Shown here: one piece after another, positions 10,104-47,069 of the stretch
Layout of the letters: every line of letters starts with the position of its first letter
Position numbering within the stretch: the first letter of the stretch is position 1
DNA from: CAYFZR01 sp046760505 [NCBI: Candidatus Hydrothermarchaeota archaeon]
GTDB taxonomy: Archaea > CAYFZR01
NCBI GenBank assembly: GCA_046760505.1
Contig: JBHIEG010000013.1
Coordinates: forward strand, 1 to 57,020
Direction of reading: 5' to 3'
DNA: 57,020 nucleotides
Notes under the pieces: generated by a model
Seen by the model: the letters and a program-made list of their open reading frames with translations, nothing else
The model's database searches: none
What the model was told of the DNA's origin: nothing
Program-made: the position numbers and the translations under genes

Positions 10104-11096
10104 ATGAAGAGGAGGGATTTTCTTAAGTTAGGAATAGGAATGGGAACAACCGCCTTGTTAGGTGGATTTGCAGCATGCCTAGGACCTAAGACCGTGGAAC
10201 TCCCGGCAATAAGATATGGAGGACAGTACTATCCGGGCGAGTTTCTGCTCTACGGAAAGCCAGATTTCTGGTCAAAGTATGGGATAAAGGTGGATCACAA
10301 AATATTCAGCTCAGGCGGAGAAAACAACGAGGCGCTAATAGCAGGAATCGTTGATATAAACTGTGGCGCTGATACAAGAACAATATCCCTTTTTAATGCA
10401 ATACCAGAGCAAGCATTAATCATTGGGACGGTGCAGAGAGGCAACAGGTATACAACTATAGTAAGAGCGGACTCTGATTATGAATCCTGGGAAGATCTTA
10501 AGGGAAAAAAAGTGGCTACCAGATTCGGAACCGGAGCAGAGGGAGTGTTAAGAAAATACTATAAAAGAGAAGGATACAACTGGGAAGATTTTGAATATGT
10601 TAATTTAAAGGTTGAAGAAATGATATCATCACTAGAGAAGGGCTTAATAGAAGCATTCACAGCTTGGGAACCCACTCCGGCGATTGCAGAGGCAAGAGGT
10701 ATAGGAAAGGTCCTGCGAACCTATGGAGACGTAGCCTTGGTTCCAGCAAGTATTCATACCAAAAAAGAGTTTGCCTATAAAAACGAGGATTCTCTGATAA
10801 GATTTCTTGCAGCTCATTTAGATAAGGCAGATTTAATTAAAAACAACCCAAAAGAAGCATCTAAGATTGCCTCTTCTGCAGCGCGCAAGAAGGGAATAGA
10901 GGTACCACCAGAAGCATTTGAGAAGGTATTCAATCGAATAAACTTCCAAATAGAATTCGGAAATGAAGTTATAGAAGCTATATATGATACAGCAGAATTC
11001 ATGGTAGAAGCAGGGAAAATAACAAAGATTCCTAAACTTGCGTGGGACACATCTTTTGTAGAAAAAGCAAAAGAATTACGAAAAGAGCTACTATAA
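10104..11096 (+). CDS. ABC importer substrate-binding lipoprotein, SsuA/TauA-like, Tat-type signal
   Basis: The 330-residue protein begins MKRRDFLKLGIGMGTT, a twin-arginine motif, followed by a lipobox-like GGFAAC at about residues 21-26, so it is probably an exported, lipid-anchored binding protein. The mature part follows the SsuA/TauA/NMT1 pattern (GIKVDHKIFSSGGENNEALIAG, DLKGKKVATRFGTGAE). The family binds sulfonates, nitrate or thiamine precursors, and the ligand here cannot be read from sequence. GGAGG precedes the ATG. The next gene starts 1 bp after the stop, so this is the first gene of a four-gene importer operon. Confidence 0.85.
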   Translation: MKRRDFLKLGIGMGTTALLGGFAACLGPKTVELPAIRYGGQYYPGEFLLYGKPDFWSKYGIKVDHKIFSSGGENNEALIAGIVDINCGADTRTISLFNAIPEQALIIGTVQRGNRYTTIVRADSDYESWEDLKGKKVATRFGTGAEGVLRKYYKREGYNWEDFEYVNLKVEEMISSLEKGLIEAFTAWEPTPAIAEARGIGKVLRTYGDVALVPASIHTKKEFAYKNEDSLIRFLAAHLDKADLIKNNPKEASKIASSAARKKGIEVPPEAFEKVFNRINFQIEFGNEVIEAIYDTAEFMVEAGKITKIPKLAWDTSFVEKAKELRKELL

Positions 11097-21409: not shown

Positions 21410-22288
21410 TTATTTTTGATCATGACACTTGGTGCAATCACTTATTGATGAATGGTGATCCTTTTTATCCGGATGGCATGCAAGACAAACATCTCTGGCC
21501 TCTTTTCTTATGTGAACAACATGGCAGCTTGTGCAGTCTCCATGCGCGCCTATCATGTGGAGCGTTGTATTCGGAGTCACATGACATTCCTTGCAAGATA
21601 GAGGTTTATCTCTTTCATGGGGTCTGTGACATAGCTTGCAGTCTGATTCTCTATGTGCTTGAGGAGTTATGCTCAGTATTGGGGCTTCTTTTTCTTCGTG
21701 GCACAGCAAGCATTCTTTTCTTCTTGGGAGTAGCGTTGTGGTTTCTTCTTCAGATGCCAAAAATTCATGACATGTTAAGCAGTGGAACTGCATCTTGCTT
21801 ACTTGAAATTCTATCTTATGACATCCGTTACAGGATGCTTCAGTGGGGATAAACCTGTGAATTCTTTCTCCATGGCAGTCCAAACATTCTTTCTCTAATT
21901 CTTCCACATGTTTCTTGTGACCCACCGTTTCTTTAACGAAAGGCCACCTAGGATCGTTTGCATAATGGCACTCCTCACAGTATTTACTTTCAACTTCTGC
22001 ATGTTTCGTTATCTCTTTAGGTCTCAGCACTATGAATCTGTACAGTTGAATCATATTCTGAGTCATACTCTGTTTGTGACACTCATGACAGTTAACTTCG
22101 CTGTGCTTGGTATTATCCCATCTATTCCAAGCCTTTTCCATTAAGTGACAAGTTCTGCAAAAACTTGGATCGTTTTCTACATAATCCATGGTGGTGTATG
22201 CGGTAACACTGATTATTGCTAGTATAAAGAGGAGCGCTACTATTAAAATCGAGAAGGGCTTTTTTGATGCCCTTACTACCGGATTCAT
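21410..22288 (-). CDS. Dodecaheme cytochrome c, NapC/NirT-type membrane anchor (copy 1)
   Basis: 292 residues with one N-terminal membrane helix (ILIVALLFILAIISVTAYTTM) and twelve CxxCH motifs. The first heme (DPSFCRTCHLMEKAW) has the CxxCHxM form of NrfH/NapC-type quinol dehydrogenases, where Met can be the axial ligand. This suggests electron entry from the membrane and a heme wire outside. About 60 percent of the gene is identical in DNA sequence to the neighbouring copy 2. GGGTGG precedes the ATG. The Fwd cluster is convergent just beyond the hexaheme gene. Confidence 0.82.
   Translation of the reverse strand: MNPVVRASKKPFSILIVALLFILAIISVTAYTTMDYVENDPSFCRTCHLMEKAWNRWDNTKHSEVNCHECHKQSMTQNMIQLYRFIVLRPKEITKHAEVESKYCEECHYANDPRWPFVKETVGHKKHVEELEKECLDCHGERIHRFIPTEASCNGCHKIEFQVSKMQFHCLTCHEFLASEEETTTLLPRRKECLLCHEEKEAPILSITPQAHRESDCKLCHRPHERDKPLSCKECHVTPNTTLHMIGAHGDCTSCHVVHIRKEARDVCLACHPDKKDHHSSISDCTKCHDQK
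21447..21976 (-). repeat. 530-bp identical tract, copy 1
   Basis: This segment reads identically to 22576-23105 (constant offset of 1129 bases). It spans the codons from heme 3 to just after heme 11 of both dodecaheme genes. On both sides the similarity falls at once: the N-terminal third, the last heme and the intergenic DNA all differ. That pattern fits recent gene conversion better than whole-gene duplication. Confidence 0.9.
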
Positions 22289-22330
22289 TCATTCCACCCT
22301 TAATCCTAAACGAATTGATTTCTCCATCGA

Positions 22331-22346
22331 TATAATCCTGTTATAT
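22331..22346 (-). promoter_or_regulatory. Shared 16-mer upstream of dodecaheme copy 1
   Basis: On the minus strand ATATAACAGGATTATA lies 43 bases upstream of the ATG. The same 16-mer occurs 38 bases before the ATG of copy 2, although the surrounding spacers differ. It contains a TATA-like core and may combine a promoter with a regulator site. Confidence 0.5.
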
Positions 22347-22544
22347 GATTTTTTGCTCTCTTTCAATTAAAAATCAGTAAATTAGACTATAAAAATCTTT
22401 AGGTTCAATTCAAATTATTTTTAAATTAATTTTAGACTTATTTTAGATTAATTTGAGGAAAAAGGAAAGATTTCATGCTTCTAGGAACAAATAATTGAGT
22501 TATATTTTGATTTACCCATATTTTAATGTTCGGTAAAAGTTACG

Positions 22545-23426
22545 TCAAGAATGACAAGGTGAGCATCCTTTCATAGATGAATGGTGATCCTTTTTATCCG
22601 GATGGCATGCAAGACAAACATCTCTGGCCTCTTTTCTTATGTGAACAACATGGCAGCTTGTGCAGTCTCCATGCGCGCCTATCATGTGGAGCGTTGTATT
22701 CGGAGTCACATGACATTCCTTGCAAGATAGAGGTTTATCTCTTTCATGGGGTCTGTGACATAGCTTGCAGTCTGATTCTCTATGTGCTTGAGGAGTTATG
22801 CTCAGTATTGGGGCTTCTTTTTCTTCGTGGCACAGCAAGCATTCTTTTCTTCTTGGGAGTAGCGTTGTGGTTTCTTCTTCAGATGCCAAAAATTCATGAC
22901 ATGTTAAGCAGTGGAACTGCATCTTGCTTACTTGAAATTCTATCTTATGACATCCGTTACAGGATGCTTCAGTGGGGATAAACCTGTGAATTCTTTCTCC
23001 ATGGCAGTCCAAACATTCTTTCTCTAATTCTTCCACATGTTTCTTGTGACCCACCGTTTCTTTAACGAAAGGCCACCTAGGATCGTTTGCATAATGGCAC
23101 TCCTCGCAAACCTCATTATCGATTTCGGTATGCTTTTTTATCTCCTTCGGTCTGAGCACGATGAAGTTGTAAAGTTGGACCATATTCTGGGTCATGCTTG
23201 GTATATGGCACGTGTGGCAAGTTAATTCACTATGCTTTGATCGATCCCATTTTACCCAAGCCTCTTCCATGAGGTGGCACATCTTACAAAAATTTGGATC
23301 ATTTTCTATGTAGTCGTATGTCTTATAGGCACTAACGCCAATTGTCGATAGCAATATTGCTACTATTACCGAGAATATGATCAATTTCTTCCTCCATCTT
23401 TGTGTAAGAGGCACTAACGGACACAT
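22545..23426 (-). CDS. Dodecaheme cytochrome c, NapC/NirT-type membrane anchor (copy 2)
   Basis: 293 residues and twelve CxxCH motifs, the first being DPNFCKMCHLMEEAW with the same CxxCHxM pattern as copy 1. The N-terminal anchor (LIIFSVIVAILLSTIGVSAY) and first two hemes differ clearly from copy 1, while hemes 3 to 11 are encoded by identical DNA. The last motif is CSPCHS instead of CTKCHDQK. Likely role: quinol-linked or other membrane electron transfer to the outside. Divergent N-termini could give the two copies different membrane partners. Confidence 0.82.
   Translation of the reverse strand: MCPLVPLTQRWRKKLIIFSVIVAILLSTIGVSAYKTYDYIENDPNFCKMCHLMEEAWVKWDRSKHSELTCHTCHIPSMTQNMVQLYNFIVLRPKEIKKHTEIDNEVCEECHYANDPRWPFVKETVGHKKHVEELEKECLDCHGERIHRFIPTEASCNGCHKIEFQVSKMQFHCLTCHEFLASEEETTTLLPRRKECLLCHEEKEAPILSITPQAHRESDCKLCHRPHERDKPLSCKECHVTPNTTLHMIGAHGDCTSCHVVHIRKEARDVCLACHPDKKDHHSSMKGCSPCHS
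22576..23105 (-). repeat. 530-bp identical tract, copy 2
   Basis: Partner of 21447-21976. The ends of identity are sharp: position 22575 differs from 21446, and 23106 differs from 21977. Confidence 0.9.
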
Positions 23427-36589: not shown

Positions 36590-37770
36590 ATACCCCTAAT
36601 AGCTTCAATTACGTTCAGTCTGCTAGCCTTAATCGCTGGATATATCCCTGCGAGTATGCATGTAACCATAGTTACCACGGATGACGTGATACCAACGTTT
36701 AAATCGTAGACCGCTGATATGTATCCGTAGATAGGATCATAGATTGGATTTAACTCAAAATATTTAATGATAAAAAATCCTAGGATGTTTCCAAAAATTG
36801 TCCCAAGCAACCCTATGACTATGGCTTCTCCCAAGAAAACATATAAAATAAACGAGTTTCTTCCCCCTATAGCCTTCAATATTCCTATCTCATGGGTTCT
36901 GTTGATCACCGTTATGTACATCATGACCACAATTGCTACAGCAGCTGCGAACAATGTTATACCGCCAAACAGAGCCATTTGATCTTTTGAAAGTTCTATC
37001 ACGGCTAAAATAAAGGCTAATTTATCTTTCCAAGTCTTCACCTTTCCATGAACATTTTGCTGCATGATGAGATATTTCATATTGTCTACATTATCTAAGT
37101 TGGTTGTTCTAATGACTATTTCAGTTGCCTGATCTCCTAGATTCAAGACATCCTTTATTTCATCCAGACCGACTATGACCATGTTGCTATCGATTTCGTC
37201 GAGATCTGTGTGGATTATGCCCTTGATGATGTAGTCTCTTCTTTCTCCATTTCTGTAGGTAATTCTGACTTTGTCTCCTAATTTAGCTTTAATTTTATCA
37301 GCAAGCTTATTTCCAATAACAATGTTCTCTCTATCTTTGTCTGATATGAAAGAACCCTCTTTTATTTTTTTGGAAAGTATGGTTACGGTATCTTCTTTTG
37401 ATGGAGTAATACCCTGTAAAGTGCAGGTTTCTAACTCATTTTTCCTGCCAATAATAGCGTCTGTATCTATTCTAGGTGATATGCCGGTTACTCCGGGAAT
37501 CAAGAGGATTTTTTTCTCTACCGTTTTTATTCCAGATATGTACTTCTTATCTTCCAGCGGTTCTACTATAATGTGTCCAACATGGGTGTTTACTGTTCTG
37601 TCTATCATTTTATCGACGAAATCTGTCATGAAACCCATCATCACCGCGTAATTCGCAGCGCCAATGCTTATCGCTAAAACTAAAAGGGCAACCATTTTTC
37701 TGTATGTTTTTACATCTCTGAATATCAAGAAAAGAACTGTTTTAAAAGAACTCACTTCTTTCTTCTCCAT
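36586..37770 (-). CDS. FtsX/MacB-type permease (copy 2)
   Basis: 394 residues with the same layout as copy 1: one N-terminal helix, an outer domain and three C-terminal helices (SIGAANYAVMMGF, NIVIGNKLADKIKAKLGDKV, INRTHEIGILKAIGG). Two unlike FtsX subunits with one ATPase suggest a heterodimeric exporter. The start lies inside the last codons of the COG1361 gene (19-bp overlap), so the four genes are one translational unit. Confidence 0.85.
   Translation of the reverse strand: MEKKEVSSFKTVLFLIFRDVKTYRKMVALLVLAISIGAANYAVMMGFMTDFVDKMIDRTVNTHVGHIIVEPLEDKKYISGIKTVEKKILLIPGVTGISPRIDTDAIIGRKNELETCTLQGITPSKEDTVTILSKKIKEGSFISDKDRENIVIGNKLADKIKAKLGDKVRITYRNGERRDYIIKGIIHTDLDEIDSNMVIVGLDEIKDVLNLGDQATEIVIRTTNLDNVDNMKYLIMQQNVHGKVKTWKDKLAFILAVIELSKDQMALFGGITLFAAAVAIVVMMYITVINRTHEIGILKAIGGRNSFILYVFLGEAIVIGLLGTIFGNILGFFIIKYFELNPIYDPIYGYISAVYDLNVGITSSVVTMVTCILAGIYPAIKASRLNVIEAIRGM
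36824..36930 (-). repeat. 107-bp identical tract between FtsX paralogs, copy 2
   Basis: Partner of 35664-35770; bases on both sides of the tract differ between the copies. Confidence 0.85.
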
Positions 37771-38993
37771 AGGAGTATTCCTATAATTAAGAGCAAAATG
37801 ACCAATCCAGCTAAGATTAAAGAAACAGCACCTTCATCTTTATAAACAGTTAAGTTGAGAGGCTCTGATAGGATGTGCTCCCCGAAATCGTCGCTGTACT
37901 TCACGATTAGGGTGTAGGGGATAGTCCCTCTTTCAGAGGGAGTAAAGGTGAATACCGCTGGGGCATCTTCATCAGGCTCTATTTTACCAAGAAAAGCCTT
38001 CCTTGTACCTTGGAAGGGCAGGTCTACCTCTGCGTATACGCTTTTTGCATCATCCTTTCCCACGTTCTCCAGTCTTACAATGAGGTTACAGTGTTCCCCC
38101 TCTATCACCTTAGAAGGATCGGTGGTTATGCTTGCTATATTCAACTCTGCCTTTCCCCTTATCTGCAAGCCTACCATTTCTATCTGATTCATGGTTAAGT
38201 CGTCTTCGTTGGTAAAATTCAAAATCACAGGGACGGATTGAAGGCCCAGTTCTGCTTTATCGTTGGAGATGAGATTAAATGAAATATTTTTGCTCTGGTA
38301 TACATCTAGTTCTTTTATAAATATGTTATCAGGCCCGGTAGATGAAAATTCTGTCCCTTCCAGTTTTATTTGAACATTGATATCCTTTACCTTGGCCTCG
38401 CCTGTATTCTTCAGTGTCATTTTAATGCTAAAAGCCTTACCAGGTTCTACATATTCTGGAATTTCTTTATCAACGGTTAACGCAGGTGTTTTAGCGTAGA
38501 CTCTTACAGGGATAGCCCAGTTGTTCTTGTATGTAATCTTATCCCAGTTCTTCCATGATGGTCCAAGAGTACTGGGGGCTTCGTAAGACAAGAAATAACC
38601 TGTGTATTCGGTATGCAAATTTAAACTGTAAGTTTCTGCCTTTGCAAACGACATCACGGAAACAACGAACGAAACAGCGTACGTATCTTCTGGATTCATA
38701 GTTCCTAACCTCATTCTACCGTTTTCTACCTTTATAAAATTGTTTCCCTCGAGATCGATCAGAATGTCTTTAGCAGGAGCTCCACCATTGTTTTTTATCA
38801 CTATTTTTAAAATTCCTGAGTCTCCTGGTTTCAATTTCTCTGTAGTGCCTGTCAATTCATAATCAACCACGAGTGCTGTGGCAGAAGGTTGGTAAATAGA
38901 GGTTGGTATCTGGGCTAAAGCTAAAAAAGGTAGGATTATTGTTGCTAAGAATAAAAATATAGATAACATTGATTTTTTTTCACATTCAGACAT
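37752..38993 (-). CDS. Surface-anchored CARDB-like protein (COG1361-type) of exporter operon
   Basis: 413 residues with a signal helix (MLSIFLFLATIILPFLALAQ), three or four beta-sandwich repeats of CARDB/NEW3 type (KPGDSGILKIVIKNNGGAPAKDILIDLEG; VEPGKAFSIKMTLKNTGEAKVKDINVQIKLEG; IEGEHCNLIVRLENVGKDDAKSVYAEVDLP) and a C-terminal anchor (VSLILAGLVILLLIIGILLW) with RRKK. It is outside the membrane. As first gene of the MacB/FtsX operon it may play the role of the adaptor or cargo carrier. AGGTGAT precedes the ATG. Confidence 0.8.
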   Translation of the reverse strand: MSECEKKSMLSIFLFLATIILPFLALAQIPTSIYQPSATALVVDYELTGTTEKLKPGDSGILKIVIKNNGGAPAKDILIDLEGNNFIKVENGRMRLGTMNPEDTYAVSFVVSVMSFAKAETYSLNLHTEYTGYFLSYEAPSTLGPSWKNWDKITYKNNWAIPVRVYAKTPALTVDKEIPEYVEPGKAFSIKMTLKNTGEAKVKDINVQIKLEGTEFSSTGPDNIFIKELDVYQSKNISFNLISNDKAELGLQSVPVILNFTNEDDLTMNQIEMVGLQIRGKAELNIASITTDPSKVIEGEHCNLIVRLENVGKDDAKSVYAEVDLPFQGTRKAFLGKIEPDEDAPAVFTFTPSERGTIPYTLIVKYSDDFGEHILSEPLNLTVYKDEGAVSLILAGLVILLLIIGILLWRRKK

Positions 38994-39166
38994 CTTATCA
39001 CCTGCTTTTTTGAATTTGTAAACTTTTGAAGGCTATCATTCTTCTCACAGGCTTAACTTGTAGGTCTGTTTTGTTTTCAGAGCCTTTTTTCATAGCCTCA
39101 GCAAAACTTAATTTTTTTGCTATTTAAGCGTTTTGCATTGTTTTTTCTTGAAAATATGTTGAGATA
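38994..39166. other. AT-rich spacer upstream of exporter operon
   Basis: No open frame of interest. Contains several T-runs on the plus strand (A-runs in the sense of the operon) and probably the promoter of the COG1361/FtsX operon, though no convincing TATA box could be placed. It borders the hairpin mosaic. Confidence 0.4.
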
Positions 39167-39546
39167 CCACCTTTAATAAAGGTGGGCCAAAGGTACTACC
39201 TCCTTCGGAGGTAGAACATCTCCCATACATTATATTTTTGTTTTTCTTAATGAGATGTTGAATTGCGAAGCAATTCTACCTAATGATCTCTCTCCACCTT
39301 TTATAAAGGTGGGCCAAAGGCACTATCTCTTCGAGATAGATCATCATGCTTTGGTTTTAATATCTTTGTTTTTCCTAATGAGATGTTGAATTCGCGTTAG
39401 CGAATTCGACCTAATGATCCCCCTCGACCTTCAAAAAGTCGATCATTTGGTAGCACTTCACAGTGCAACATCTCAAATAGAAAATGGCCCCCAGCACCTT
39501 TCATAAAGGTGGGACAAAAGTACCTCCTCAACCTTTCAGAAGGTGG
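39167..39546. repeat. Mosaic of about ten short hairpins with conserved flanks (BIME-like)
   Basis: Hairpins seen: CCACCTTTAATAAAGGTGG (39167), CTACCTCCTTCGGAGGTAG (39196), GAATTGCGAAGCAATTC (39260), CCACCTTTTATAAAGGTGG (39294), CTATCTCTTCGAGATAG (39323), GAATTCGCGTTAGCGAATTC (39388), imperfect TCGAC/GTCGA (39424), GCACTTCACAGTGC (39453), CACCTTTCATAAAGGTG (39495) and a weak one at 39529 covering the hyuB stop. Five carry a common frame: GAGATGTT (or a variant) on one side, TACC...TGATC or TACCTTTGGCCC on the other. These alternate in orientation (-,+,-,+,-). Stem bases change in pairs. The region is downstream of hyuB on its transcript. Confidence 0.75.
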
Positions 39547-41150
39547 ATGGGGTATCTCTCCCTAATAAATTCGATGGTATATTTCTCATCTTTTAGATCT
39601 TTTAAAATTTTTTCTCTATCTCTTTCCCCTAGATTGCCGTATCCGCCCCCTCCAGGGGTCCTGATGCTAATTATTGTATCCGGTTCTACGTCAATGATTT
39701 CTTTGCCCGAGAGAATTATTTCTTTACCGTCTTTTATCATTATATCTAAACCTTTTGAGCCATCTTCTCCCATTTCTATTCCCCTTGGAGGTATTTTTCT
39801 CCTTTCGCTTAGTAGTGATAATCTTGCTTTGGTAAGGACTCTTATATCTCTTCTAATTCCAAGACCCCCCCTGTACTTCCCATAGCCTCCAGAATTCTCT
39901 ATGAGTTCATATCTTTCGATTCTTAATGGATACCTCATTTCCAAAGCCTCTACAGGAGTGTTCTGGGTATTCGTCATATGTACATGGATGCCATCCACTC
40001 CATCGGCTCTATCAGAGGCTCCATAACCGCCTCCTATCGTCTCATAATAAGTAAATTCAGAAGTACCAATTGCTACATTGTTCATCGTGCCTTGAGATTG
40101 GGCAATTTTCATTCCAGTAATCTCTCTGAATGCAATCAGTAAAGCCTCAACTATTCTCTGAGATGTCTCAACGTTTCCTCCAACCACTCCTTTGGGGTAG
40201 GAAGCATTTAAAAGGGAATTTTTTGGGATGTTTACATCTATAGGTCTATAACAACCAGCATTGGGTGGTATTGACGGATCAGTGACGCATCTAATTACAT
40301 AATAAACACACGAAAGGGTAACAGCATATGGACAGTTGAGATTTCCATCTACCATATCGCTTGTTCCATCGAAATCTACCACTATTTTATCCTCTTCTAC
40401 TTTTACCGAGACCTCTATCTTTGAGCCATCATCTAAAAAATCTACTCCTTTTCCTTCCTTTCCTCTATACTTGGATATCTGAGAGAGCATCATCCTCTCG
40501 GAATAATTTTTTATCTCCTCGAAGGAATAGAGTAATTTTTCTCTGAATTTCTCGTACAATTCTTTCATTCTTTCCTTCCCCAAAAAATTTGCTGCTACTT
40601 GAGCATATAAATCTCCAAGGCGTTCTTTAGGATCTCTTACGTTAGCAAGGAATAGAGAGAGAATCTCTTCATCCATTGTTCCTCCCTTATAAAGCTTTAC
40701 TGGCGGTATTCTCAAGCCTTCCTGGAATATTTCAAAAGTATTTCCTGCCATGCTTCCAGCTGTAATACCACCTATATCTGCGTGATGTGCCCTGTTAACC
40801 AAAAAACCAATTAATTCTTTAAAATAAACGGGAGTTATCACCGTAACGTCAGGAAGATGGGTTCCCCCTTTAAAGGGATCATTTGTTATTATAACATCGT
40901 TTTCTTTTATTTCAACCTCTTCTAAAACGTTTTTCAAGCAGTAGGGCATTGATCCTAAGTGCACAGGTATATGTTCCGCCTGTGCTACCAGTTCACCGCC
41001 AAAATCGAATATTGCGGTAGAAAAATCCCTCCTTTCTTTGATGTTTGAAGACTGGGCTGCTCTTTGAAGAACTAAACCCATTTCCTCTGCGATTGCAGTC
41101 ACTCTATTTTTAAAAACCTCCAGTTCTATGGGAGTGAGCACCTTGATCAC
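39528..41150 (-). CDS. Hydantoinase/oxoprolinase family subunit B (HyuB)
   Basis: 540 residues, full family length. Motifs: EHIPVHLGSMPYCLKNVLEE, ITNDPFKGGTHLPDVTVITPVYF, VNRAHHADIGG (metal site), and GGYGKYRGGLGIRRDIRVL. HyuB proteins work with HyuA in ATP-dependent ring opening of hydantoins or oxoproline, or in acetone/acetophenone carboxylation. Substrate unknown. It overlaps hyuA by 4 bp. Its last codons lie in a hairpin of the downstream mosaic. Confidence 0.85.
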   Translation of the reverse strand: MIKVLTPIELEVFKNRVTAIAEEMGLVLQRAAQSSNIKERRDFSTAIFDFGGELVAQAEHIPVHLGSMPYCLKNVLEEVEIKENDVIITNDPFKGGTHLPDVTVITPVYFKELIGFLVNRAHHADIGGITAGSMAGNTFEIFQEGLRIPPVKLYKGGTMDEEILSLFLANVRDPKERLGDLYAQVAANFLGKERMKELYEKFREKLLYSFEEIKNYSERMMLSQISKYRGKEGKGVDFLDDGSKIEVSVKVEEDKIVVDFDGTSDMVDGNLNCPYAVTLSCVYYVIRCVTDPSIPPNAGCYRPIDVNIPKNSLLNASYPKGVVGGNVETSQRIVEALLIAFREITGMKIAQSQGTMNNVAIGTSEFTYYETIGGGYGASDRADGVDGIHVHMTNTQNTPVEALEMRYPLRIERYELIENSGGYGKYRGGLGIRRDIRVLTKARLSLLSERRKIPPRGIEMGEDGSKGLDIMIKDGKEIILSGKEIIDVEPDTIISIRTPGGGGYGNLGERDREKILKDLKDEKYTIEFIRERYPIHLLKG

Positions 41151-45835: not shown

Positions 45836-45908
45836 ACGACAACCCTTTAACAGATAGATAACTTACAGTATTTAACTCTTAGTGATCGACTATCGAAGGG
45901 TTAAAAAG

Positions 45909-47069
45909 ATGATGCAACCAAGAATTACCTGCAAACTATTCGGAGCTTTGAGAGTAGTTCTCGGAATCAAAGATGCAGTGCCTTTAATCCATGCACCCCT
46001 AGGGTGCGGATATCATCTAAGATACATATTCGGCATGCGAGGAAATGTACCGATAAGGATTTACGTCACTCAGATGGACCAAAACGATGTTATTTTTGGG
46101 GGAGAAAAAAAATTACTTGATTCTTTAGAAAGTTTGGACAAGAAATTAAATCCAGATCTCATAGTTGTCTTTTCTTCTTGCGCGAGTAGCATAATAGGAG
46201 AAGATCTCGAAGCAATATCTAGCCAAGCAGATGTAGGATGTGAGATTCTTACAGTATCCAGCGGTGGATTTGAAGGCACGCAAGTCGATGGTTACAGAGA
46301 GGCGTTAGAGAGAATAATCACAAAACTTATAACCGATTCAGATGAAAAAATAGATGCCTTCAATATCATTGGAGAATTTAGAGGAGGAGAAGATCTTAAA
46401 TACTTGAAAAATATTTTCAATAAACTTGATTTAAAATTAAATTCAGTTTTGACTGCAAGTTCAAGCCTGAAAGAGATTAAAAATGCCTCAAAGGCAAGTT
46501 TAAACATACCTGGATGTGAATCCGCAGGAATAGACGCATGTAAATTAATGGAAAAGAGATTTGGAATTGAATACCTGAGATTACCCATGCCCATCGGAGT
46601 AGAACAGACAGTAGAATTTTTTGAGGGAATAGCAAATGCTTTCGATAAAAGAATAGACTTGGAAAGAGAGAAAAGGAGTACCTTAGAAGAATTGGAAAAA
46701 TATAGGAAAAAACTTGCAGGTAAAAAGGTTTTTATCGCAAGCGGTCCCACAAGAGCCTTGGCATATACGAGATTTTTATCAGAACTACATATGGATCCGG
46801 TTCTTGTCTCTGTGGACCATTCTACGGAAACTGTAGAGAAAGAACTGAAAAAACTCAATGTAGATATGCTCAAAGAGCCGGATTTTGAAGAGTTCATAAA
46901 TATTATAAACGAATTAGATTTTGATATAATGATCGGAGGAATGGGAGAAATCGGGGCAAGTACATTTATAAAAAAGCCACTTCTAGATGTTATGCATGGA
47001 AAAAAATTGACATACGGCTTTGAAGGAACATTAAATATTGCAAGAGAGATGGCTGAAGTCTTAAAATAA
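45909..47069 (+). CDS. Orphan nitrogenase component 1-like protein (NifD/NifE-type fold)
   Basis: 386 residues from the ATG at 45909 (GAAGGG upstream; GTG 45882 is the alternative). Three cysteines lie where P-cluster-type ligands fall: C8 (RITCKLFGAL), C33 (IHAPLGCGYH) and one near residue 100 (FSSCASSIIGED). DVIFGGEKKLLDSLE and SSGGFEGTQVDGYREAL also follow the family. The later FGIEYLRLPMPIGVEQT block is typical of NifE/NifN/NifD domain 2. No NifH, NifK or NifB is nearby. The HGPSGCCFRTARLLE pattern of CfbD is absent. It may be a subunit of a nitrogenase-like reductase of unknown substrate. Confidence 0.75.
   Translation: MMQPRITCKLFGALRVVLGIKDAVPLIHAPLGCGYHLRYIFGMRGNVPIRIYVTQMDQNDVIFGGEKKLLDSLESLDKKLNPDLIVVFSSCASSIIGEDLEAISSQADVGCEILTVSSGGFEGTQVDGYREALERIITKLITDSDEKIDAFNIIGEFRGGEDLKYLKNIFNKLDLKLNSVLTASSSLKEIKNASKASLNIPGCESAGIDACKLMEKRFGIEYLRLPMPIGVEQTVEFFEGIANAFDKRIDLEREKRSTLEELEKYRKKLAGKKVFIASGPTRALAYTRFLSELHMDPVLVSVDHSTETVEKELKKLNVDMLKEPDFEEFINIINELDFDIMIGGMGEIGASTFIKKPLLDVMHGKKLTYGFEGTLNIAREMAEVLK

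Follow-up and report, generated by a model that had tools for sequence, protein, structure and literature searches.

A hairpin-dense archaeal gene spacer as a probable array of multi-hairpin palindromic elements

The locus and its hairpins

The window analysed here is a stretch of archaeal DNA of 57,020 nucleotides. The array that is described occupies positions 39142-39554, the spacer between the end of one gene (41150..39528) and the start of another (38993..37752), both on the minus strand. The gene at 39528..41150, upstream in transcript order, has homologues identified by search and presumably encodes a hydantoinase B-like protein; its last codons fall within the last unit of the array. 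The downstream gene at 37752..38993 encodes a CARDB-domain protein according to a domain scan.

A scan for perfect hairpins with a stem of at least 7 bp and a loop of 3-5 nt found seven between 39167 and 39511, with stems of 7-8 and loops of 3-4. Shuffled versions of the region held 0.11 such hairpins on average and two at most (1000 shuffles), the rest of the 57-kb window holds 15 others, and 105 other loci (1.48 Mb) reach at most three per 400 bp. If one hairpin with a 5-bp stem and two imperfect structures, a central arm and a long hairpin, are added, the total is about ten, in agreement with the original prediction of about ten inverted repeats at the locus. The pattern GAGATGTT-N14-24-TACC occurs three times in the window against 0.09 expected, and CCACCTTTNATAAAGGTGG is found exactly at 39167 and 39294 and with one mismatch at 39494. 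For the array as a whole the minus strand alone was folded, and the fold of 39140-39570 has a z of -7.4. ARAGORN at default settings predicted no tRNA gene in the window, so that the array is not tRNA-intronic.

Anatomy of the array units

Five half-units make up the core of the array, each reading GAGATGTT, a stem-loop and TACC, or close variants of these, plus AATGATC or TTTGGCC, in the order -,+,-,+,- along the array. A covariance model of the half-unit, R1, was trained on the five window copies themselves and matches them at 39182-39222 (-), 39252-39290 (+), 39309-39347 (-), 39380-39421 (+) and 39438-39474 (-), with 36.8 to 54.3 bits, scores that follow by construction because R1 was built from those copies. 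Model and hairpin scan together bear out what had been proposed for these five copies, namely a common frame, the individual stems and loops, their alternating orientation and their coordinates. Beneath the variable stem, four of the five half-units carry a collar, a T.T mismatch that reads A.A on the other strand.

The half-units pair up as larger symmetrical units of about 95 bp, with the order GAGATGTT, hairpin B1, TACCTAATGATC, hairpin HpA, GGCCAAAGGTA, hairpin B2, AACATCTC. These larger units stand in tandem and in one orientation (+); the distance from HpA of unit I to that of unit II is 127 bp, and a 33-nt repeat, which runs from the last part of the T-rich linker into the unit, has copies at 39232 and 39360 that are 94% identical.

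Unit I (39142..39222) consists of a T-rich lead, HpA, GGCCAAAGGTA, B2 and AACATCTC. Its first arm B1 is absent, the span from TTTTTC to CCACC being 25 nt vs 53 in unit II. HpA of unit I (39167..39185) is CCACCTTT-AAT-AAAGGTGG with an 8-bp stem, and B2 (39196..39214, -) has an 8-bp stem CTACCTCC and a TTC/GAA loop. The T-rich linker that follows (39223..39251) contains the start of the first 33-nt repeat, which extends into unit II. Unit II (39252..39346) reads GAGATGTT, B1, TACCTAATGATC, HpA, GGCCAAAGGCA, B2 and ATCATC, its right outer arm having diverged; B1 is GAATTGC-gaa-GCAATTC (39260..39276, +), HpA was located by pattern and hairpin scans (39294..39312), and B2 is CTATCTC-ttc-GAGATAG (39323..39339, -). 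A second T-rich linker (39347..39379) leads to unit III.

Unit III (39380..39474) is complete and forms a predicted four-way cloverleaf closed by GAGATGTT and AACATCTC. The cloverleaf is obtained on both strands, with -35.3 and -39.9 kcal/mol and z of -6.5 (+) and -6.0 (-). Its B1 (39388..39407, +) is GAATTCGC-gtta-GCGAATTC, its central arm (39409..39451) is formed by ACCTAATGATC and GATCATTTGGT enclosing TCGAC and GTCGA, and its B2 (39453..39466, -) is GCACT-tcac-AGTGC. Unit IV (39494..39554) is degenerate: HpA (39494-39512) is followed by GACAAAAG and then by an imperfect 15-bp hairpin at 39521-39554, paired by eye, within which the stop codon of the 39528-41150 gene falls. The fold of this unit (39480-39562) is weak, with z of -1.7 and -2.1. 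A second repeat type had been described as recurring between the five copies; three copies of CCACCTTT are indeed present, and the third precedes GACAAAAG rather than the GGCCAAAGG that had been named.

Comparison of the arms between units shows how the stems change. From B2 of unit I (CTACCTCC/GGAGGTAG) to B2 of unit II (CTATCTC/GAGATAG) a C-G pair is replaced by T-A and one pair disappears, and from B1 of unit II (GAATTGC) to B1 of unit III (GAATTCGC) one pair is gained. In the alignment of the five half-units 93.8% of cells are paired, vs a shuffle mean of 70.2, with one of 500 shuffles as high. In five of the seven pairs both partners have changed, a number reached in 25 of 500 shuffles. 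Within the limits of a test on five rows, some of them tandem copies, these numbers support the earlier reading that the fold and not the sequence is kept.

Searches for the window motif elsewhere

R1 found no further copy in the 57-kb window, the next match after the five having 14.7 bits. An Rfam scan gave no match at the gathering score and chance-level ones only below it. R1 was also run on 58 Methanophagales-class genomes, on 392 from the phylum of that class, on 115 from another phylum and on 11 from a related class, whole-genome searches in which scores cover part of the candidates, and nothing convincing was obtained: matches were seen in two of the 58 genomes at E <= 0.5, in four of the 392 and two of the 115 at E <= 0.1 (best 8.9e-4), and in six of the 11 at E <= 2. 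By eye, these matches fall in coding sequence, in the tRNA-Gln introns L107 and L152 and in another spacer hairpin, L153, and they were set aside as chance, with the exception of L149. This single match falls, by eye, in a hairpin mosaic of G072, a genome of the class of 11, which had itself been reached via the match at L107.

Blastn against phage and plasmid records gave no match. Exact patterns did occur in viral DNA, with 4, 3 and 8 matches on 15 contigs that represent 10 distinct sequences, and were dismissed as chance, no perfect stem in the gap exceeding 5 bp; two other exact patterns had no match on viral contigs. As a separate observation, the viral contig L120 has the HpA pattern and seven perfect hairpins within 400 bp (10536-10935), mostly non-coding, one of which has the window HpA stem, then one base, then GCCAAAG. 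These hairpins adjoin the start of a large ORF, which we take to be terminase-like.

A double-hairpin element in a related class

The genome G072 is a single contig of 1,067,436 bases. At the weak R1 match at 471386 the spacer is dense with hairpins that have different stems and common flanks. A strict scan for GTYGA, a variable stem with its loop, and ACRAC found 24 such places in G072 (44 rows including alternative stem lengths), vs 0 or 2 rows for the same flank letters in other orders. Fourteen of the 24 places were aligned without gaps as alignment A4, which has 13 distinct rows and 50 columns including a second hairpin; the other 10 were omitted by eye, the second hairpin not following directly or an insert being present.

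In A4, 98.8% of cells are paired vs a shuffle mean of 81.1, a percentage inflated because the scan demanded a paired first stem and the rows were picked by eye. Twelve of 19 pairs are altered on both sides and the covariation score is 0.499 vs 0.164 in shuffles; none of 500 shuffles was as high in any of these three measures. The number of further pair types did not stand out, 268 of 500 shuffles being as high. The element of this class is a double hairpin of about 50 nt with covarying stems.

A model of this element, R2, was made from A4 and contains no window sequence. R2 has matches in seven of the 11 class genomes, six of them outside its making, with best E values per genome from 8e-17 to 2e-18; in the other four there is no match. 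At E <= 0.1 the counts are 67 (G072, the source), 32, 16, 14, 9, 6 and 5, many of these being the two strands of the same hairpin. A scan of 81 other loci (1.35 Mb) gave a single match, with E of 0.075. Stretches of the class genome G114 reach seven hairpins per 400 bp, and 400 kb of G081 contained no cluster of four or more, two densities that are not fairly comparable because the G114 stretches were chosen for R2-bearing contigs and that of G081 for a long contig.

Sites of the relatives' elements

G072 has copies in spacers and tRNA introns, and others lie in frame within protein genes. Location was examined for 32 of 70 matches, those scoring at least 30 bits, and 11 ORFs were read, nine of which were domain-scanned. 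At 10 of the 32 the reading frame is open through the element with at least 120 nt open on each side, an openness that is partly built in because, for four of the six frames, 8 to 13 of the 14 A4 copies have no stop. One further element, at 908617, has 211 and 159 nt of open flank and a TAA within it.

Six of the 10 open-frame elements lie inside a recognised protein, and the other four lie before or near a domain or in an ORF without a scan. In TiaS (L154:7218-8591), residues 6-331 correspond to 21-346 of the structure 3amt and residues 365-452 to 346-434, with 33 extra residues at the element. In thymidylate kinase (L170:6581-7285) the element lies at a 20-residue gap of the solved chain, and in a MoaD/ThiS-like protein (L154:10860-11213) it is in frame inside the gene. 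In LeuRS (L192:9523-12408) it falls in a gapped stretch of the alignment, not cleanly resolved. These four in-gene elements encode at least 17 extra residues. In two further proteins, Endo_dU and one with an asparagine synthase domain, the match runs across the element, and the remaining four open-frame ORFs are PilB-like, aspartate dehydrogenase, DNA polymerase B and one without a domain scan. Two observations by eye come from other class genomes: a hairpin-element array apparently in frame in a carB-like gene (L211, G130:C41:3931-4031), and, close to where a PIN-domain-like gene starts, an element that keeps the frame and contains a TGA (L210, G090:C28:48517-48566).

Three of the 32 elements lie in predicted tRNA introns, of tRNA-Tyr (217161-217375), tRNA-Ala (619943-620144) and tRNA-Lys (1026217-1026586). 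Further hairpin mosaics were seen in predicted tRNA introns of G072 of up to 366 nt, for example in the tRNA genes predicted at 398652-399091, 617692-618074, 966486-966758 and 1026217-1026586, and one tRNA-Gln becomes a standard tRNA when 199 nt are taken out. Nesting is seen as well. Between CTCACTGCTCCG and CAGTGAG, in the loop of a hairpin, there is no insert at 685156 and 769128, whereas the site is filled at 398845, 617902 and 966595. The filler is a 51-nt double hairpin of a second type, GTGGCAGATG...CATCTGCCAC with CTAAATC...GATTTAG. The filled and empty loops would reflect insertion rather than loss, and the three fillers, being identical, may be copies of one event.

Relation of the window array to the class element

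When R2 was run on the 57-kb window, the best five of 14 matches all fell within the array, at 39165-39433. The best has 13.2 bits, with a borderline E of 0.08, and the others have 10.7, 9.5, 9.1 and 8.9. A hairpin model such as R2 favours hairpin-rich DNA; on a hairpin-dense, GC-richer phage contig it gave at most 7.3 bits. In the other direction, R1 scored highest in G072 (18.7 bits, E 0.74) at a place that overlaps the R2 element at 471366-471415. The general architecture is similar and the lineage related, and at the collar there are differences of detail: the class element has an A.A under a 4-bp outer stem, four of the five window half-units have the T.T collar with an outer GT/AC only, and by eye the G114 composites have a bulge in place of the collar.

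Blastn against G072 gave 32.8 bits, not above shuffled queries (up to 35.6, median 31.0). A resemblance of the central arm of unit III to hairpins of G072 tRNA introns (24 of 28 letters) was dropped on this ground. No window element was seen with an empty counterpart. These data suggest that the window array and the class element are probably of the same kind, the array being a diverged relative, and the evidence for homology between the array and the class family is suggestive, not conclusive.

Kinship of the host with this class is mixed. The HMG-CoA reductase of the window is 65-71% identical to its counterparts in the class of 11, the only class searched with it, and highest in G114 (71%). 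For 16 out of 47 proteins of the window a match at E <= 1e-20 was found in stretches of four class genomes, the reductase with 67% identity and the others with 30-59%. FwdA is 57% identical to Methanophagales vs 54% to the class genome G090; none of the 392 genomes of the Methanophagales phylum passed E 1e-213, the best value in the Methanophagales class being 4e-212. An FtsX-like permease passed E 1e-60 in three of the 392 genomes (32-37%) and E 1e-50 in none of the 115 genomes of another phylum, and homologues of the hydantoinase, in a scan of genome contigs, are at most 53% identical. By FwdA, the host is no nearer to the class than to Methanophagales.

Interpretation and alternatives

The reading that we consider rather likely is that the region is a four-copy array, one copy full and three incomplete or degenerate, of a palindromic multi-hairpin element of about 95 bp, most likely the same kind of element as the double hairpins of the class. 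In the window it is based on the repeated flanks, the paired but differing stems, the tandem units, the presence or absence of an arm at the same site and the overlap with a gene end. In the relatives it is based on the dispersed covarying copies, on their occurrence in spacers and tRNA introns as well as in frame in genes, and on the filled vs empty hairpin loops. The elements would spread as hairpins, possibly via single-stranded DNA or RNA. They may be tolerated through safe sites (spacers, introns and loops) and through a length near 51 nt, which would preserve the reading frame. The cloverleaf mosaic could have arisen when hairpins entered the loops of hairpins already present and the product was then duplicated in tandem, and pairing might be maintained since it is the shape rather than the sequence that would matter for mobility or for palindrome-correcting repair. 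A bolder version, which is put forward tentatively and is more doubtful, is a shape-defined mobile class of archaeal double hairpins of about 51 nt that move independently of a Y1 transposase. Their targets would be hairpin loops, including those of their own kind, tRNA introns and essential genes, in which the frame is preserved, and the window array would then be a recursively nested product.

A structured RNA has also to be considered, in which the hydantoinase transcript would carry tandem cloverleaf modules towards its 3' end, with a role in mRNA stability or termination or as a non-coding RNA. The same-strand orientation of the flanking genes, the minus-strand fold of the whole array, the cloverleaf z of about -6 and the preserved pairing are consistent with it. 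However, Rfam has nothing at the gathering score, single units fold similarly on either strand, the units vary (one arm is absent and one unit has decayed), and similar elements of the relatives are also found in genes and tRNA introns. The relatives' elements stay paired whether they lie in a spacer, an intron or a coding gene, which makes a single RNA function unlikely; shape-dependent mobility or palindrome-correcting repair fits better. It is likewise quite unlikely that the array is a local product of tandem duplication with no kinship to a dispersed family, in which the stems are paired by mutation alone, by quasipalindrome correction or template switching. Quasipalindrome correction would yield paired stems without selection, and both the tandem units, with a repeat that bridges linker and unit start, and the occurrence at a single locus in 57 kb agree with such an origin. 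Against it, the relatives carry dispersed and not merely tandem covarying elements, and the flanks are kept while the stems change. Template switching could still operate on a dispersed family.

The original prediction had named a REP/BIME-like family and proposed a check for a REP-type Y1 transposase. The kind is right, as dispersed covarying hairpins occur in the relatives, but copies of the window motif were not found elsewhere in the genomes searched. The check, run on the relatives, had a divided outcome: the transposase domain, PF01797, was found in three of the 11 class genomes (G125, G114 and G081) and was not found in G072, the richest in R2 matches. Palindromic units, alternating orientation and a spacer location are all found in the window, and G125 and G114 are R2-positive as well as carrying PF01797, which would agree with a true REP/BIME family mobilised in trans by a Y1 (RAYT-type) transposase. 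Nevertheless, the stem sequences are not conserved, no transposase was identified among the 24 window ORFs scanned, and PF01797 was not found in the R2-positive genomes G072, G130, G090, G120 and G140. Because of these five genomes, though they may be incomplete, a REP/RAYT system is not supported, and we regard it as distinctly improbable.

Comparison with known systems

Returning to the preferred reading, an array of elements like the double hairpins of the class, several known systems offer parallels. Double-hairpin elements (DHE) of fungal mitochondrial DNA consist of two hairpins with variable paired stems, look mobile and lie in gene spacers. By this general description they share the double hairpin and the variable paired stems with the array and the class elements, the difference being that DHE are fungal and mitochondrial. 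Archaeal tRNA introns are a further parallel, since several predicted introns of G072 contain hairpin mosaics, whereas the window array lies outside any predicted tRNA gene. Bacterial REP/BIME sequences resemble the array as short palindromes in spacers with alternating orientation and mosaics, but here the stems vary and the flanks are kept, and the search of G072 for a Y1 transposase was negative. The main text of a REP survey that includes archaea does not use the words "covariation" or "compensatory" (PMC12306157).

Rickettsia palindromic elements (RPE), palindromes of about 150 bp in frame within protein genes, are the closest described case of in-gene palindromes as far as the available text of PMC10969869 goes. 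The likeness, judged from that same text, is the presence of in-frame palindromes in genes, a feature of the class relatives and not of the window copy (PMC10969869). In the window the copies lie in a spacer, and unit IV alone covers the last codons of one gene. The class element differs from RPE in that it is about 50 nt long, a covarying double hairpin, archaeal and also tRNA-intronic, and a second type nests in loops. Among the full-text literature matches listed, no archaeal counterpart of in-gene palindromic elements was recognised. A lineage with changing paired stems and lasting flanks, whose hairpins occupy loops, tRNA introns and the genes of TiaS, thymidylate kinase and other enzymes, would make direct tests possible, of the movement of shape-dependent elements, of the translation of the inserted peptides and of the origin of multi-hairpin mosaics.

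Other features of the window

Two further features were seen in the window, away from the array. At 21410-23426 lie two genes that by eye are rich in CxxCH motifs and have a stretch of at least 300 bp in common at 96% identity, which suggests a recent duplication or conversion. At 45882-47069 lies a nitrogenase component-1-like gene, whose best match is NifE, below its cut-off.
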